Shown: one piece after another, positions 4,744 through 44,977 of the stretch
Layout: every line of letters starts with the position of its first letter
How positions within the stretch are numbered: the stretch's first letter is position 1
Source of the DNA: Gemmatimonadota bacterium
GTDB lineage: Bacteria > JBHIER01 > G020348925
Assembly (NCBI GenBank): GCA_020348925.1
Contig: CP070758.1
Coordinates: 3,574,202-3,619,316, forward strand
Direction: 5' to 3'
Length of the DNA: 45,115 bases
The notes under the pieces: generated by a model
What the model was told of the DNA's origin: nothing
The model's input: only the letters and a program-made list of their open reading frames with translations
The model's database searches: none
Made by a program: the position numbers and the translations under genes

Positions 4744-4819
4744 GCGCCCATAGCTCAATTGGTAGAGCAGCGGACTCTTAATCCGTTGGTTCGGGGTTCA
4801 AGTCCCTGTGGGCGTACCA
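4744..4819 (+). tRNA. tRNA-Lys (anticodon CTT)
   Basis: A 76-nt cloverleaf. The acceptor stem is GCGCCCA (4744-4750) with TGGGCGT (4809-4815), containing one G-U. The anticodon stem GCGGA/TCCGT encloses loop CTCTTAA, with anticodon CTT at 4777-4779. The T-arm contains GGTTCAAGTCC. Discriminator A4816 and an encoded CCA (4817-4819) follow. The tmRNA begins 7 nt downstream, so the two are almost certainly cut from one transcript. Confidence 0.96.
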
Positions 4820-4826
4820 ATATTTT

Positions 4827-5180
4827 GGGGGCGACAGGTTTCGACGGGGATAGAGGGGGCAGGGATAGCAGGTCGAGCATTCCCAATAACTCGTTAAACT
4901 GACGGGAACCAAATGTAAGTGCAAACGGTTATTCTTACGCACTGGCTGCTTAATGCAGCTCGTTCTCACCGGCCCTGCCTGTTGGGCTGGATGAGGGCGT
5001 CGTAAAAAACAGGCTGGCCTCTCCTTCACGCCGAGGGAGAAGAGGTGAGATTTTATCGGCTGGTGCCCTCCGGATCCCGCTTGTTGGAGCCGGATGGCAT
5101 GAGACTCAAAAAGCAAGCTAAGCCTGTAGAGGTCCCTGTGACCGTATCTTCGGACGTGGGTTCGATTCCCACCGCCTCCA
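4827..5180 (+). ncRNA. ssrA: Transfer-messenger RNA (tmRNA)
   Basis: A 354-nt RNA that rescues stalled ribosomes and tags the nascent protein for proteolysis. The 5' end GGGGGCGACAGGTTTCGAC is the family signature. GGGGGCG (4827-4833) pairs with CGCCTCC (5173-5179) as the acceptor stem, and the T-arm reads GGGTTCGATTCCC. The tag frame resumes at GCA 4921 and stops at TAA 4951-4953, encoding ANGYSYALAA, which ends in the usual A-L-A-A degradation signal. After discriminator A5180 the sequence is CTG, so CCA is not encoded and must be added, unlike in the neighbouring tRNA. It is a one-piece tmRNA; the pseudoknots were not modelled. Confidence 0.96.
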
Positions 5181-5195
5181 CTGCGTCCCTCGTAA

Positions 5196-5610: not shown

Positions 5611-6195
5611 ATGAGGCGCTGGCGAAGACGCCGGACGAAGCAAGGGGAATTTGAAGAAACAGCACTGAGCCATTTCGATTCCCTATACAACGCCGCCGTC
5701 CGAATGACAGGGAGTGCGTGGGAGGCCGAAGATCTCGTTCAGGAAACCTACATGAAAGCCTACGCCTCTTTCCATCAGTTTCAGCGGGGCACGAATTGCA
5801 AGGCATGGCTCTTTCGAATTTTGATGAATACATACCTTAACACTTATCGGAAAGACAAAAGAGAAGCCCAGGCTCTTTCTCTTGAGATCCCTGAGGATGG
5901 TTACATTTTCAATAGATTTGAAGAGGAGATTCCGAACTTCGGGGAGGTTATGGGCGAAGAGTTTTTGGGGAAACTCGTAAGCGATGACGTGAAACGCGCC
6001 ATCGATGACCTTCCAGCGGAGTTCAGAGCCGTCGTTCTTCTGTCGGATTTGGAATCCTTGACGTATCAAGAGATCGCGGATGCTCTGGATTGCTCGCTGG
6101 GGACGGTCAAATCACGGCTTTTTCGAGGGAGGCGAATGCTCCAGAAGAGCCTGTGGGACTACGCCGTGGAGAAAGGCATCGCGAGGAGGAGATGA
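5611..6195 (+). CDS. ECF-family RNA polymerase sigma factor
   Basis: A 194-residue sigma-70 family protein with only regions 2 and 4. Region 2 (about residues 22-80) includes the core-binding [11 protein letters not shown] and the [10 protein letters not shown] helix. Region 4 (about 126-178) has [11 protein letters not shown] and the helix-turn-helix [19 protein letters not shown]. The Arg-rich start (R-R-W-R-R-R-R) is unusual but translation from 5611 has a G-rich ribosome site just upstream. The anti-sigma gene starts 1 nt after the stop. It likely directs transcription of the redox operon behind it, released by an envelope thiol or metal signal; the latter is inference. Confidence 0.92.
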
Positions 6196-6196
6196 G

Positions 6197-7027
6197 ATGA
6201 CCTGTGAACAAGCCACAACCCGTCTCCACGAGTTTCTGGACCACGAGCTGTCCGGGCAGCGCCACTCCGAGGTCGGTGCACATCTTGCGTCGTGTCCGTC
6301 GTGCAGACGAATGTACGAGTTCGAGCAACAGCTTCGGAATACCGTCTGGGAGAAAGGCCGCGAAGAGAAAGCCCCCGCTTACGTCTTCGAAAGGGTCAAA
6401 CGAAACGTATTTGAAAAGAAGAAGAGAGAAGTGAAGGATCGTTCCGAACGCTCGTGGATGGGACTGAGACCGGCTTGGAATTGGGCCGTCGCCGCCCTTG
6501 TCGCTGTCACCGTGGCGGGGACCTGGGTGGCCCTGAGGGGGAAAGGAGGACCTCCGCCCTTGCTGGCGGAGCTGGTGGGCGATCACATGCAGTACGCTGA
6601 GGCTGAGAAGCCGTCGGAAATGGTCTCCTCCGACGCTGATGAAATCGAGATCTGGTTGGAGGGGAAACTGGGGTACGCCATCGTGGTGCCCCGGTTCGAA
6701 GGGCCACATATGCACCTCATCGGGGGCAGGATCCTGGATGTGAAGGGGATGAAGGTGGCCTACCTCTTTTATCAGGGGGACGGGCGCGCGCTGTCCCTGT
6801 ATGTGACAAAGGTTTCGACCGCCGAGCTGTGTGCCAAGGATAAGCTTCAACTCCAGGATTGCCGGCTCTGCCTCGTGAAGTTTCACAACTGCGAGCTGTG
6901 CATCAGTAAATTTCGGGACTACAACATCCTGTCCTGGGAGGAGGAAGGGGTCACCTATGCCATGGTCTCGGATTTGGATAGTGAGCACATGCTCGATGTG
7001 ACGTGCCCCCGAGGCATCCCAAGTTGA
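6197..7027 (+). CDS. Membrane anti-sigma factor with Cys-rich periplasmic sensor
   Basis: A 276-residue protein. The start at 6197 follows the sigma stop by 1 nt; the longer in-frame extension overlaps the sigma gene and is discarded. The N terminus is a zinc-binding anti-sigma domain with H29-x3-C33-x2-C36. One membrane span lies at about 94-113. The periplasmic part contains G-Y-A-I-V-V-P-R-F-E and V-A-Y-L-F-Y-Q-G-D-G-R, a pattern seen in anti-sigma sensor domains, then an unusual run of cysteines: C212, C222-x2-C225, C232-x2-C235 and C270. These could bind a metal or form disulfides that report the periplasmic thiol state, fitting the downstream CcdA and thioredoxin-like genes. The sensing role is inference. 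Confidence 0.88.
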   Translation: MTCEQATTRLHEFLDHELSGQRHSEVGAHLASCPSCRRMYEFEQQLRNTVWEKGREEKAPAYVFERVKRNVFEKKKREVKDRSERSWMGLRPAWNWAVAALVAVTVAGTWVALRGKGGPPPLLAELVGDHMQYAEAEKPSEMVSSDADEIEIWLEGKLGYAIVVPRFEGPHMHLIGGRILDVKGMKVAYLFYQGDGRALSLYVTKVSTAELCAKDKLQLQDCRLCLVKFHNCELCISKFRDYNILSWEEEGVTYAMVSDLDSEHMLDVTCPRGIPS

Positions 7028-7059
7028 GAGAACGAAATCTATTTCAAAGGTACTGATTT

Positions 7060-7794
7060 ATGGAAGAAGTGACTATTTTTGCGGCATTTATTGCGGGTGT
7101 TATATCCTTTGGATCACCTTGTGTCCTGCCGCTCGTTCCGGCCTATATATCCGTCATCTCCGGAATCTCCCTCGATGAGCTCAAAGGGGGCCACGATAAA
7201 AAACTGGTCTGGAGAAAGGTGAGCCTCAATTCAATCGCCTTTATTCTGGGATTTTCGACTGTGTTCGTTCTCCTGGGGGCATCGGCCACGGTTGCGGGCC
7301 AGTTTCTGTTGAGCAAACTGACGGTTATTACCAAGATTGCCGGGGTGCTCATTATTATCTTCGGGCTGCACACCATCGGTCTCTTTCGGCTTAAATTTTT
7401 ATATTACGAAAAGCGGTTTCAAGCCCAACAAAAGTCCGTCGGCCTTTTAGGCTCCTTCGTTATTGGATTGGCGTTTGCCTTTGGTTGGACGCCCTGCATT
7501 GGTCCGATTCTGGCGGCTATTCTTATTGTGGCCGGGACTCAGGAGACGGTGCTGCAGGGCATCTCCCTTCTGGCCATCTATTCGCTCGGCCTCGGGTTGC
7601 CCTTCTTCATTACCGGCCTCAGCATCAATTTCTTCCTGGGCATGTTCAGTAAGATGAAGTGGAAGTTTTTCCGCACCATCGAGATCGTCAGCGGAGTGTT
7701 CCTGATCGTTGTCGGCGTCCTCATCTTTACGAATTATCTCTCTATTATTAGTAGCGTACTCATGCAGTGGTTTCCGTGGCTCAATTTGGGATAG
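7060..7794 (+). CDS. ccdA: CcdA-type thiol-disulfide transporter (DsbD transmembrane family)
   Basis: A 244-residue protein with six or more hydrophobic spans. It carries the two membrane cysteines that define CcdA/DsbD-beta: C21 in G-S-P-C-V-L-P-L and C146 in W-T-P-C-I-G-P. The family moves reducing equivalents from cytoplasmic thioredoxin across the inner membrane to periplasmic acceptors. Here the obvious acceptors are the TlpA-like protein encoded 13 nt downstream and the putative selenoprotein after it. It begins 32 nt after the anti-sigma gene with a weak ribosome site (AAAGGTACTG region). The length is normal for a stand-alone CcdA with no fused thioredoxin domain. Confidence 0.92.
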   Translation: MEEVTIFAAFIAGVISFGSPCVLPLVPAYISVISGISLDELKGGHDKKLVWRKVSLNSIAFILGFSTVFVLLGASATVAGQFLLSKLTVITKIAGVLIIIFGLHTIGLFRLKFLYYEKRFQAQQKSVGLLGSFVIGLAFAFGWTPCIGPILAAILIVAGTQETVLQGISLLAIYSLGLGLPFFITGLSINFFLGMFSKMKWKFFRTIEIVSGVFLIVVGVLIFTNYLSIISSVLMQWFPWLNLG

Positions 7795-7807
7795 GAAGGT
7801 GCACATC

Positions 7808-8341
7808 ATGCCGATTCGAATGAAACAATGGAGTCTGTTCCTCTTTGTCCTGATAGTGACCGTGAATGGGATGCGGTGCTCGGGCAGGCAGAAGGAGGCT
7901 ACGCACGCCGATCTTCAGATTGCACCGGATTTCACCCTGAACGACCTGAACGGTCGAACCGGCAAACTGTCGGACTATCGAGGCAAAGTCATCATATTGG
8001 ACTTCTGGGCAACCTGGTGTGGGCCCTGCCACATGCTCATCCCGCACTTTAACGATCTGTATACGAAGTATAAGGAGGCCGGATTCGAGATCGTCGGAGT
8101 GGCCCTAGATCAGGGAGGAGCCAAGCTGGTGAAACCCTTTGTGGAGAAACATTCGATCGCCTATACGAACTTCATCGGAAACCATGACGTGGCCATGAAG
8201 TACGGGGGCCTGCGAGGTATTCCGACGACCTTTGTTCTTACGAAAGAGGGTCGGATTTTCAAGAAATATGTTGGAGTTCCCCCCAACCCACGGGATACGT
8301 TTGAAAATGATATTCGAACGTTACTCTCTCTGGAGGGTTGA
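7808..8341 (+). CDS. TlpA/ResA-like periplasmic thioredoxin
   Basis: 177 residues from the ATG at 7808, which has AGGAAGG upstream; the longer frame overlapping ccdA is discarded. An N-terminal hydrophobic segment (about 8-20) is followed by C24 in G-M-R-C, not a standard lipobox, so it is either a lipoprotein or an anchored protein. The thioredoxin fold shows D-F-W-A-T-W-C71-G-P-C74 and a cis-Pro in G-I-P-T-T-F. Members reduce disulfides or assist cytochrome c maturation, taking electrons from CcdA. The neighbours make it the likely electron relay from CcdA to the DUF1573 protein; that link is inferred from gene order. Confidence 0.92.
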   Translation: MPIRMKQWSLFLFVLIVTVNGMRCSGRQKEATHADLQIAPDFTLNDLNGRTGKLSDYRGKVIILDFWATWCGPCHMLIPHFNDLYTKYKEAGFEIVGVALDQGGAKLVKPFVEKHSIAYTNFIGNHDVAMKYGGLRGIPTTFVLTKEGRIFKKYVGVPPNPRDTFENDIRTLLSLEG

Positions 8342-8485: not shown

Positions 8486-9883
8486 ATGAAAGGTACGGTC
8501 GGAAGAATAGTGGCGCTGGTGGTTGTTGTGATCATTGGCGTGGCAGCAATATATTTCGTTGCTTCAAACGCGGGCAACAAGGTCGTCCCGCCAGTGGCTG
8601 AAGGGGAAAAGGTGTCCTCAGGTGAAACAGCTGAAGGCACAGTCGTTGCTACCGGGCCTCAGCCGCAAATTCAATTCGAGGAGATGGTGTACGATTGGGG
8701 TACGGTCTACCAGAACCAAAAGGTCCCCCACGTATTTAAATTTAAAAACGTGGGTGAAGTCGATCTGGTCATAGAGAATGTGAGGTCCTCGTGAGGATGC
8801 ACGGCAGCGTTGCTGTCGGAAAAGGTTATTCCCCCCAAGGGTGAAGGTGAAATAAAAGTCACTTATAATTCCGGGAAACGGAAAGGTTCCCAGTCCAAGT
8901 CCGTTTCGGTTGAAACGAACGACCCCAATAACAAGAAGCTGTCGTTGAAGGTAAAAGGCATTGTGAAAGAGGCGGTGGCGTGCAAACCCGATCGGCTCAA
9001 TTTCGGCAAGATCGTCCAGGGAGATACCCAAATGCGGGAGGTCACAGTCACACCGGGTGAGGGCGAAAAGGTGAAAGTGAACAAGGTGGAGTCCTTGTCG
9101 GAATATGTGACGACCAAGCTTTCAAAGAATCCCGAGGGTGAAGGCTATGTCGTTCAAGTGACGCTGAGCCCGAAAGCTCCGCGGGGCCGTCTGGACGGAC
9201 AGGTGAAAGTCTACACGGACAATGAAAACGCGCGGGAAATTACAGTCTATGTGAATGCCACGATCACCGGGGAGATCGTCTTCGTCCCGGATCGGGTAAC
9301 TCTCATTGTCCAGAAGGAACAGGAGAACCAGGGGGCGACGGTCACCGTGCACAAGGAGCGAGAGGGGACCTTCGCAATTACGAAGGTCGAATGTGACGTG
9401 TTGCATGTGTCGACGGAACTTCAGACTTTGGAGGAGGGAAGACGTTACACTGTGCTTCTGAATGCCTCGGACCAAGTCGACATCGGAAGGGACAGCGGCA
9501 CCCTGACCCTTCACACCGATGCGCCGGACGATCCTGAGGTGAAAGTTCCTCTGACACTCATTGTTCGCGGCAACTTGAACATCATCCCAGAGCAACTGTC
9601 CTTCGGCCTGGTCAATCAGGGAGATCAGAGGACGAAAACGATCACCGTGTCGACGAGTAAGGAAAAACTCAAGATCAAAAAAGTGAAATGCGACTTGGGC
9701 TTTTTGACGACGAATGTGGAGGAGAGAGAAGCCGGGAAAAGCTTCCAAATCAAAGTCACCACAGAGGCGAACGCGCCTGATGGGCAGTTCGATGGAACAT
9801 TGACGATAGAGACCGACGATTCGCTTCAGCCGAAGGTGGAAATTCCGGTGAACGGGAGAGTTCGCGCCAAACCCTCGACGTAA
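8486..9883 (+). CDS. Putative selenoprotein: DUF1573 domain plus Ig-like repeats, Sec at TGA 8792-8794
   Basis: 465 residues if TGA 8792-8794 (codon 103) is read as selenocysteine; frame and homology continue unbroken on both sides. An N-terminal membrane anchor (about 8-26) is followed by a DUF1573 domain (about 60-165): Y-D-W-G-T-V, F-K-F-K-N-V-G, I-E-N-V-R-S-S-U103-G-C105-T, then P-K-G-E-G-E-I-K-V and S-V-E-T-N-D-P. The family signature here is S-C-G-C-T, so the TGA falls on the first Cys. At least three more Ig-like units follow to the end. A hairpin sits just after the TGA. The gene has a strong ribosome site (AAAGGAGG). It lies between a TlpA-like gene and a rhodanese, so a redox role is likely. 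The alternative is a nonsense mutation. Confidence 0.8.
8792..8818 (+). promoter_or_regulatory. Candidate bacterial SECIS element
   Basis: In-frame TGA (8792-8794), then 7 nt, then a 7-bp stem CGGCAGC (8802-8808) with GCTGTCG (8812-8818), one G-U pair, and a three-base loop GTT whose first base is G. Bacterial SECIS hairpins lie immediately 3' of the UGA and usually have a G early in a small apical loop; here that G is 15 nt past the A of the TGA, short but near the range of known examples. The stem is inside the coding frame, as required. Confidence 0.65.
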
Positions 9884-9916: not shown

Positions 9917-10417
9917 ATGGAACCGAGAAAAGTGTGGCGGTCCGTTGTAAAGGAGGCGGTGTGGATTATTCTTGTTTCATCCTTGATCGGCTTTACTGTG
10001 AATCTCTCTTTTGTGATCGACGTCTTGCGCGGCGAAAGGGCCGTCAGTCCCGAACAGAAGATTGATTCGATTCTCAACAATAGCGACGTAACGCCGGTCA
10101 CGCTTCCTGAAGCAAAGAGAGCCTTTGACTCGAACAGCGCTCTTTTTGTCGACTCCCGAAGTGCGAAGGATTATGCTGAAGGCCACATCCTGGGCTCGAT
10201 CAATCTGCCCTGGGAGGATTTCGAAGAGCTCAAGGCCGACCTCGAGGCTCTGATCCAGGAGGACAGAACAATCATCACCTATTGCGGAGGTTCGTGCGAT
10301 AGCAGTGCTGAGTTGGCCGAGGCGTTAAGAGCACATGGTTTTACACATGTAAAGGTCCTTTTGGACGGATGGCCGTTGTGGGTCAAAGCACAATACCCGG
10401 TGGATGCATTCGAATAA
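9917..10417 (+). CDS. Membrane-anchored rhodanese-like protein
   Basis: A 166-residue protein. An N-terminal membrane segment (about 14-36) anchors a rhodanese domain (about 60-160) with V-D-S-R-S-A-K-D-Y-A-E-G-H-I-L-G-S-I-N-L-P, the classic rhodanese pattern. The active-site loop is T-Y-C123-G-G-S-C127-D-S-S; Cys123 is the expected catalytic residue, and Cys127 could pair with it. Rhodaneses carry persulfide sulfur. It lies 33 nt after the DUF1573 gene and precedes the MauE-like gene, so it belongs to the same operon. Whether it handles sulfur or selenium here is unknown. The ribosome site is weak. Confidence 0.9.
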   Translation: MEPRKVWRSVVKEAVWIILVSSLIGFTVNLSFVIDVLRGERAVSPEQKIDSILNNSDVTPVTLPEAKRAFDSNSALFVDSRSAKDYAEGHILGSINLPWEDFEELKADLEALIQEDRTIITYCGGSCDSSAELAEALRAHGFTHVKVLLDGWPLWVKAQYPVDAFE

Positions 10418-10477: not shown

Positions 10478-10966
10478 GTGAGTTTTTTCGAGTTTCTGAA
10501 GCAAGTTGTCTCGCACAAAATCCTGGGATTTTTCTTTCGGATGTTATTAGGGGCGACGTTCCTGTACGCCTGCTACGATAAGATCCTTCATCCGGAGGCG
10601 TTCGCCGAGGCCGTGGCCAACTATCGGATGCTTCCCGCAGCCCTGGTGGGACTCTTGGCCGTGACATTGCCCTGGGTGGAACTCTTCTGCGGGTTATTCC
10701 TCATCCTGGGCCTGTTCATCCGCAGTAGCGCCCTCATCGTTTCCCTCATGTTTTTCGTATTCAGCATCGCCCTGTCCGCCGCCGTCCTGCGAGGCATCGA
10801 TATCGATTGTGGCTGCTTCCGTGTCACGGATGGCGGTCACAGCGTGACCGTCGGTTTGATTCTCCGGGATCTCGGCTATCTCGTGTTAAGCCTTCACGTG
10901 CTTTTTTTCGATAAGGGATTTCTGAGTTTCTCGCCGCTCATACGACAATTGCGTCGCAAAGCGTAG
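10478..10966 (+). CDS. MauE/DoxX-type membrane protein with CGC motif
   Basis: 162 residues from a GTG at 10478 (G-rich ribosome site just upstream). About four hydrophobic segments fit the DoxX/MauE fold. A pair of cysteines, C111-G-C113 in I-D-I-D-C-G-C-F, sits after the third span. MauE-type proteins often carry such cysteines and accompany periplasmic disulfide enzymes and thioredoxins. This is the last gene of the redox operon, 60 nt after the rhodanese. No terminator with a T-run was seen after it, only a short C5/G5 inverted repeat near 10985-11010. Confidence 0.8.
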   Translation: MSFFEFLKQVVSHKILGFFFRMLLGATFLYACYDKILHPEAFAEAVANYRMLPAALVGLLAVTLPWVELFCGLFLILGLFIRSSALIVSLMFFVFSIALSAAVLRGIDIDCGCFRVTDGGHSVTVGLILRDLGYLVLSLHVLFFDKGFLSFSPLIRQLRRKA

Positions 10967-42255: not shown

Positions 42256-42637
42256 CAGATCGTGATAAGAATTATGAGTCGGGGAATCGAGCTTCATGGA
42301 GATAGAGCGAAAGATTATGCGGACGTAATGGATGACATCCTTCATACGTGGAACCGCGTTTTGAAGTTTGAAATCTCAAAAAAAGATCATACCTGAAAGA
42401 CTTTGGTACGTTAAATTATGAGTCTTGAAGAGAGATTTTCAGGTAGACGTGAATTGGCTCGGACATGGGACTGTGAGGCGTGGCATGGGGCCGACATGTG
42501 AGTGTTACCTAATTGAAGAAATCGCGTGTTGTGTGTGGGGACCGCAGGTTGAACAGGAGTGGAGAGTACGTTACCCGTGATATGACAGAATGGCGGAACT
42601 GCCTCATTTCAACAGAAGTTGAATGCAGGTAAAACAT
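42256..42637. other. Intergenic region inside the polysaccharide cluster
   Basis: 382 nt. A frame from ATG 42274 to TGA 42394-42396 would give 40 residues (M-S-R-G-I-E-L-H-G-D) without a clear ribosome site; it may be a remnant of a lost gene. Nothing else was recognised. Confidence 0.35.
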
Positions 42638-43792
42638 ATGCGCATTTTGATTGATACACACCTTTCGGATGAGAAAACCGACGGAATTGGTAGATACCTG
42701 AATGAGCTGGTGCGTGCATTACTGCGGATCGATCAACAAAATGAGTATGTTCTTTTAACCAATTCTGGAATCGGTGTTACTCATCAGCTCCAAAGTTTGG
42801 AGGCTCCCAATCTGGTGAAAATACCCGTGGGATTGCGTGGTCTGGATTGGAGAGCGCATTTTGTCATTCCCAGAATTATGAACCGTGTTCGTCCCGATGT
42901 CTATCATCATCCGCATTTTGATTTACCGTGGTTTCACAATATTCCATCGCTCATTACTGTTCATGGACTCAAATACATTAAACATCCTGAGTTTTATAAA
43001 TGTCAAAGCGGTTCCACACGAGTTTATTTGAAGCGAGTTTACATGGAAACAATGATGGGTCTCTCAATTCGAAAGGCTCAGCGAGTGATTGCCGTGTCGA
43101 GGAGCGTGAAAGATGATATCATGTCGGTCTTCAAGACCACCCACGATAAGGTTTCGGTTGTACACCTTGGAAGTCCTTTGAAACACAATATATCTTGTAC
43201 CGACGCGGATATCTCGAAATTCTACAAGAAATACGGAATCAAAGGGAAGGTTATTCTTTTCGTGGGTGCCCAGCTCCCCCACAAGAATCTCATTCGCCTG
43301 ATTGAGGCGTTCGATATTTTTCAAAAAAGCATCGGAGGAATGTTCCAACTTGTCATTGCGGGGAGGTCTTACTCCAGTTATTCAAAACCCCTTGATAAGG
43401 TTCAAGAGCTTGCCTTAGAGGAAAAGGTGATCTTCACCGAACATCTTAGAGATGATGAGTTAAAGATCATATATCGGACTGCAGAAGTATTTGTAATGCC
43501 TTCACTTTACGAAGGTTTCGGTTTGCCCGTTCTGGAGGCTATGAATAACGGTGTTCCTGTGATTGCTTCCAATCTGAGTTCCCTTCCCGAAATTGTTGGT
43601 GAGGCCGGTATATTGGTGAATCCGTTTCATACGCAAGAAATTGCGGCAGCCCTGGAGAAAATTGTTACGGACAACACTACTTTCAGGGAACTGAAAGTCA
43701 AAGGTGTGGAGAGAGCCGGGAATTTTACATGGGAGACAGCGGCACAGCAGACCCTGGAAACCTATAGAGAGGTGTATGAGAAGTCGGGATGA
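42638..43792 (+). CDS. GT4-family glycosyltransferase (mannosyltransferase-like)
   Basis: 384 residues from ATG 42638 (AGGTAAAA upstream); ATG 42623 is also in frame. The front [20 protein letters not shown] and H-H-P-H-F-D-L-P fit the GT4 enzymes of the mannosyltransferase group. The back half has [11 protein letters not shown]-x-R-L-I-E-A-F, V-I-A-G, and the nucleotide loop [16 protein letters not shown] with the E-x7-E pair, then [13 protein letters not shown]. Donor is likely GDP- or UDP-sugar; unproven. Confidence 0.92.
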
Positions 43793-43816
43793 ATCCGAAA
43801 CTTGAGAGGAGCGGTT

Positions 43817-44977
43817 TTGCGGAAGATTAAAGTCTTACATATGATTACCGAACTGCCTGTGGGAGGTGCACAGGACAACACTCTTCTCACAGTGAGTCAC
43901 TTAGACAAAAGGAAATATGACGTCACATTGCTGAGTTCTCCAGCGGGGTCCTGGGTTCAAAGAGCCCAAAACATTCCGGGAATCAGAGTTCTCCTTGAGA
44001 AAAGTATCCAGAGGGAAATTCACCTCATTAGCGATTTTGTCGCATTTTGGAAAATCTATATGCATATTCGACGCGAACGATATGATATTGTTCACACCCA
44101 TAGCTCGAAACCTGGTGTTTTGGGGAGAGCGGCTTCGAAATTGGCCGGGGTACCTGTCGTTATTCACACCATTCATGGCTTTCCATTCAACGATTACATG
44201 AATTTTTTTGTGAGGAAGTTTTACATCTTCTTAGAAAAAATGGCCTCAAAGTGGGCCGACAAAATGATTACGGTGTCCAATTTGAATTTGGAAAAAGCTG
44301 TGGCTTTAAGAATAGCCCAGCGGGAAAAATTTGTAAACATCTACAGCGGGATAGATTTTGATAGTTTCAGTATAAAAACGGACGTCCCTCAAAAGAGAAG
44401 GGAGCTCGACATCCCCCCAGGACATTTTGTGGTCGGCATGGTGGGCAGGCTTTCTCCGCAGAAGGCACCCCAGTATTTTATTCAAGCCGCGGCACATGTG
44501 CTCAAAGATATCCCCAACGTCATGTTCCTTCTCGTCGGCGACGGCAGTCTCCGAGAAGAACTGGAGAGACTTTCATACAGGCTCGGTCTCGAAAACCATA
44601 TTCGTTTCTTAGGCGAGAGAGACGATATACCGGAAATTCTGAATGTTTTTGATGTCTTCGTTCTTTCATCCCTGTGGGAAGGTCTGGGGCGGGCACTCAC
44701 CGAGGCGATGGCTATGGCAAAACCCACTGTGGCCACATCTGTGGAGGGGGTGCCGGAACTGGTTGACAATGATAAAACTGGAATTTTAGTGCCTCCTAAA
44801 GATCCGGAATCGTTGGGCGCTGGAATTCAAAGGCTATTGAGAGATAAGTCTTTTGCCGCGGAGTTGGGTCAGAACGCTCAGAGCAGAGTATTGAGAGATT
44901 TCAGCGCGGAGATAATGATTGAGAGAATAGATGCTCTTTATGAGCAGTTGTTATCGCACACAGGAGAGTGGCAATAA
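43817..44977 (+). CDS. GT4-family glycosyltransferase
   Basis: 386 residues from TTG 43817, which sits about 7 nt after AGAGGAG; an in-frame TTG at 43802 lies before that site. The N-terminal half has H-M-I-T-E-L-P-V-G-G-A-Q-D-N-T and H-T-H-S-S-K-P-G-V-L-G-R-A, the pattern of pglA-like enzymes. The C half has V-G-M-V-G-R-L-S-P-Q-K-A-P and E-G-L-G-R-A-L-T-E-A-M-A. It closes the cluster within this window; 138 nt without a gene follow to the window's end. Confidence 0.92.
   Translation: MRKIKVLHMITELPVGGAQDNTLLTVSHLDKRKYDVTLLSSPAGSWVQRAQNIPGIRVLLEKSIQREIHLISDFVAFWKIYMHIRRERYDIVHTHSSKPGVLGRAASKLAGVPVVIHTIHGFPFNDYMNFFVRKFYIFLEKMASKWADKMITVSNLNLEKAVALRIAQREKFVNIYSGIDFDSFSIKTDVPQKRRELDIPPGHFVVGMVGRLSPQKAPQYFIQAAAHVLKDIPNVMFLLVGDGSLREELERLSYRLGLENHIRFLGERDDIPEILNVFDVFVLSSLWEGLGRALTEAMAMAKPTVATSVEGVPELVDNDKTGILVPPKDPESLGAGIQRLLRDKSFAAELGQNAQSRVLRDFSAEIMIERIDALYEQLLSHTGEWQ

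Follow-up and report, generated by a model that had tools for sequence, protein, structure and literature searches.

The gene considered here (8486-9883, plus strand) lies within a window of 45,115 nucleotides, the whole stretch of DNA that was analyzed, and stands in a run of genes that all share its orientation. In order, these encode an ECF-type sigma factor (5611-6195), a zinc-finger anti-sigma factor (zf-HC2; 6080-7027, true start probably near 6197) that resembles RsrA below the cut-off, a CcdA/DsbD transmembrane-domain protein (7060-7794), a TlpA/ResA-like thiol-disulfide oxidoreductase with the motif WCGPC (7709-8341, true start probably near 7808), the DUF1573 protein itself, a rhodanese-domain protein with a hydrophobic N-terminal segment (9917-10417), and a MauE/DoxX-like membrane protein (10478-10966).

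Preceded by a Shine-Dalgarno-like AAAGGAGG, the frame that opens at ATG 8486 runs for 102 codons to a TGA (8792-8794, plus strand), its sole in-frame break, and then for a further 362 codons to the terminal stop. With the TGA read as selenocysteine (Sec; U103), translation and profile matches give a predicted selenoprotein of 465 amino acids, in which a hydrophobic N-terminal segment is followed by a DUF1573 domain carrying U103-G-C105 and by further Ig-like repeats. The Pfam model PF07610 spans the TGA (residues 62-160, E 3e-39), and its 133.4 bits against a curated cut-off of 26.1 place the protein in DUF1573. The surrounding residues are V-R-S-S-U-G-C-T, and the codon aligns with the first Cys of the S-C-G-C-T motif; an in-frame UGA thus stands where the UGC motif begins, a position held by Cys in homologues. 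A preliminary description, made from the letters of the sequence, had claimed a single frame interrupted once, a TGA at this cysteine, a hairpin with a G-first GTT loop behind it, and CcdA and thioredoxin-like proteins encoded just upstream. Each of these points was borne out, by the translation, by the PF07610 match and the alignment of relatives, by the predicted fold and by the gene order, respectively. A single-sequence AlphaFold model of the protein had a pLDDT of 38 and was not used, and a PDB sequence search with the protein matched no relative. Including this gene, 14 TGA-interrupted candidates were found mechanically in the window; the other 13, judged by position only, look antisense, intergenic or like adjacent genes sharing a frame, and were set aside.

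Selenocysteine machinery of the genome

The genome from which the window derives is a single contig of 5.04 Mb, 96% complete. It encodes SelA (599 bits), SelB (396 bits) and SelD (372 bits) together with a tRNA-Sec(UCA) of 65.8 bits that has TCA in its anticodon loop, so that the machinery expected to accompany a bacterial selenoprotein gene, on which the preliminary description had made its claim depend, is present in full. The SelD gene has an internal TGA of its own, which places U within VRCAGUASK, and a formate-dehydrogenase-like gene has a TGA that places U within ARIUHSATV. We take both to be the usual Sec places of these proteins, the latter being the FdhF Sec site; besides the DUF1573 protein, at least two proteins of this genome thus seem to contain selenocysteine. 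A formate-dehydrogenase-like match in the same genome (G000:C1:4215473-4215949) contains one in-frame TAG.

These observations bear on the possibility that the TGA at 8792-8794 specifies a different amino acid, such as Trp or Cys, by way of a recoded tRNA. The complete Sec system and the TGA codons at classic Sec sites elsewhere in the genome speak against it, as do the presence of Cys and not Trp at this column in other family members and the use of TGA to terminate ordinary genes of the window, such as 42623-43792, which precedes 43802-44977. We consider it extremely improbable.

Exchange of cysteine and selenocysteine in the family

A search of 386 genomes with the NCBIfam model NF041425, in which stops were translated through and E values up to 1e-12 accepted, gave 102 DUF1573 matches in 78 genomes. 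An in-frame stop occurs in 16 of these matches (14 genomes) and is TGA in every case; no TAA or TAG was found as an in-frame stop among the 102. The 16 TGA codons occupy one and the same alignment column, where Cys and TGA alternate, and the second motif Cys (C105) is kept in all 16 copies, with UGC in 15 and UAC in one. TGA at positions other than this Cys, which the preliminary description had named as a finding that would speak against it, was thus absent from these matches. SelB scored over its cut-off in 13 of the 14 TGA genomes vs. 28 of the 64 genomes without a TGA copy (Fisher p 0.0008). The one TGA genome in which it did not is G190, from which a contig may be missing.

The closest homologue, L059, comes from another genome, is full length with 199 of 460 residues identical (43%), and keeps the TGA. 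A search of its class and phylum for close homologues covered the window's genome alone, the sole representative of both in the genome set, which points to a thinly sampled bacterial lineage. A scan of viral contigs found no DUF1573 relative, while a scan of further genome contigs added one Cys-form relative, from Flavobacteriales. In a family tree of 40 domains the Sec/Cys label changes six times on the best tree, and well-supported branches force only one of these changes, so that the tree does not fix the number of gains and losses of Sec. The window's genome also has a second DUF1573-type protein (L072:2157-4379; G000:C1:2947333-2947626), which contains Cys and not Sec at the motif (SSCTTCS).

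The suggestion in the preliminary description that this might be a new, undescribed type of selenoprotein was not upheld, since catalogue entries and a curated model show that the family is already known. An entry for the selenoprotein OS_HP2 (pfam07610, motif UxC) gives 2 sequences with Sec and 354 with Cys, as the columns are understood from the table layout (PMC2398784, 2008), and a DUF1573 domain protein with the motif UGC appears among listed selenoproteins in two later papers (PMC9312934, 2022; PMC13188914, 2026). The second of these credits the DUF1573 selenoprotein to Zhang and Gladyshev 2007. In the literature found, its status as a selenoprotein is given only in catalogue tables and with few Sec sequences. 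The NCBIfam model NF041425 bears the name 'OS_HP2 family (seleno)protein'. With C in place of U and two stretches summed, the 8486-9883 protein scores 104.8 bits against its cut-off of 100, a narrow pass, as the best single domain reaches 77.2 bits and so falls below that cut-off.

The product of 8486-9883 belongs to the known OS_HP2/DUF1573 family (PF07610, NF041425) as a new member that is long and has multiple repeats, and is not a new kind of protein. It shares with the family a DUF1573 domain in which Sec takes the place of the first Cys in a UGC (UxC) motif, Cys forms being the majority, and differs in its 465-residue length, its extra Ig-like repeats, its modest best-domain score on NF041425, and its place in a run of sigma factor, anti-sigma factor, CcdA, TlpA, rhodanese and MauE genes. 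UGC-containing TlpA disulfide reductases and the WAxxUGC ResA-like selenoproteins (NF041054) likewise combine a U-G-C redox motif with an extracytoplasmic redox setting, but they have a thioredoxin fold, whereas the window protein carries its motif in an Ig-like DUF1573 domain; the TlpA-like neighbor in the window, unlike them, has Cys. In the window CcdA, TlpA and rhodanese are separate proteins, and each matches part of the model for the TsoB rhodanese/DsbD fusion-like selenoprotein (NF045694). Membership of that family was rejected for all three, as their scores lie far below its 805-bit cut-off and none carries a TGA.

A putative SECIS hairpin and the reading of the TGA

Shortly after the TGA a hairpin is predicted, CGGCAGC-GUU-GCUGUCG (8802-8818, plus strand). 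The published bacterial SECIS model allows a loop of 3-9 nt with G in one of its first two places, a stem of 4-16 bp, a spacing of 16-37 nt, and an energy of -7.5 kcal/mol or lower. The GUU loop, the 7 bp stem and the energy of -10.2 kcal/mol lie within these limits, and the start of the loop, 14 nt after the UGA, lies outside the spacing range. In most family hairpins the loop stands 18-23 nt after the UGA, and the nearer position is common to the 8486-9883 gene and L059. Taken alone, the energy of the hairpin is not unusual for its own sequence (z -0.33).

Comparison with relatives favors this hairpin as a putative SECIS element. L059 keeps every nucleotide of it: codons 106-112, which underlie the hairpin, are all identical, vs. 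40% of shared-residue codons over the whole gene, a rate at which six consecutive identical hairpin codons would arise by chance with a probability of about 0.004. Conservation is complete only in the hairpin stretch, and the same test applied to codons 104-115 as a block gave no significant result (p 0.15). Among family members in general, the predicted hairpins are stronger in the 16 Sec copies than in 24 Cys copies of equal GC content (median -9.3 vs. -5.35 kcal/mol; p 0.0003, a value that serves only as a guide because the compared rows are related to each other).

An annotation in which TGA can only mean stop would cut the gene in two. If translation truly ended at the TGA, or if the codon had arisen by nonsense mutation, the locus would be a pseudogene or would encode two separate proteins. 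An internal TTG start at 8810 and the unremarkable energy of the hairpin by itself are compatible with this. However, the frame stays open for 362 codons past the TGA, a full-length homologue in another genome has the same codon, every in-frame stop in the family is a TGA at one column, and the genome holds the Sec machinery. The long open frame and the TGA shared with the homologue make chance or sequencing error very unlikely, and we regard a true stop as highly improbable. Strong support for selenocysteine comes from the full machinery together with the Cys/TGA exchange at a single column and the conserved hairpin. On this comparative evidence, 8486-9883 very probably encodes an OS_HP2/DUF1573-family selenoprotein in which the TGA at 8792-8794 is read as Sec at position 103. 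SelB and tRNA-Sec, helped by the hairpin directly 3' of the UGA, would insert the residue.

Gene neighborhood and a possible redox role

Sec-containing DUF1573 genes adjoin thiol-redox genes in three places. At the window locus the neighbors are CcdA and the TlpA-like protein; in L063 (317-2825), which belongs to G190, the Sec-DUF1573 protein has a C-terminal cytochrome-c-like part with CxxCH and is followed in a row by a thioredoxin-domain protein and MauE; and in L060 an MsrB gene (SelR domain; 6701-7282) lies directly 3' of the Sec-containing gene. Just upstream of the L059 homologue lies what remains of a TlpA-like sequence, short, decayed and containing a stop (L059:6930-7010; E 1e-5 for a search space of 1 kb), which suggests that the linkage of TlpA and DUF1573 is older than the window's genome. 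CcdA, TlpA and rhodanese genes are not conserved beside most other Sec copies, and the electron path proposed below therefore rests on the window locus, L063 and the L059 remnant. The confinement of Sec to a single column across 14 genomes, its association with SelB and with stronger hairpins, and these thiol-redox neighbors give a domain of unknown function a testable role.

The 8486-9883 product may be a membrane-anchored, extracytoplasmic protein whose first Ig-like domain bears U103-G-C105 as a selenenylsulfide/selenol redox centre fed by CcdA and TlpA. Electrons would probably leave the cytoplasm via CcdA, be handed to the TlpA-like protein and reach U103, and this residue would reduce an extracytoplasmic substrate; we give this path, with its substrate, an even chance. 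The main rival is that the protein is a selenoprotein in which U103-G-C105 serves metal binding, binding of selenium or sulfur compounds, or a structural cross-link, and not electron transfer fed by CcdA and TlpA. The relation of DUF1573, as Ig-like repeats, to HYDIN-type and choice-of-anchor domains suggests scaffolding, and the rhodanese encoded by the next gene and the lack of CcdA/TlpA neighbors at most other copies also fit a binding or structural role. Against it stand the thiol-redox genes adjoining the window gene and the L063 and L060 copies, and redox catalysis is what a replacement of Cys by Sec usually indicates. This rival is possible but the less probable of the two.

In the electron-transfer reading, the downstream rhodanese and MauE-like proteins would be partners of the selenoprotein, and the sigma/anti-sigma pair would act as the redox-responsive regulator. 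More tentatively still, the locus might constitute a dedicated, redox-regulated selenium relay in which a SigR/RsrA-like pair controls CcdA, the TlpA-like protein, Sec-DUF1573, rhodanese and MauE. Such a relay would supply the first functional assignment for DUF1573, as a reductase or a peroxidase/sulfur-relay centre outside the membrane. Elsewhere in the window, at 4744-5183, a tRNA-Lys(CTT) is followed directly by a tmRNA with the tag ANGYSYALAA.
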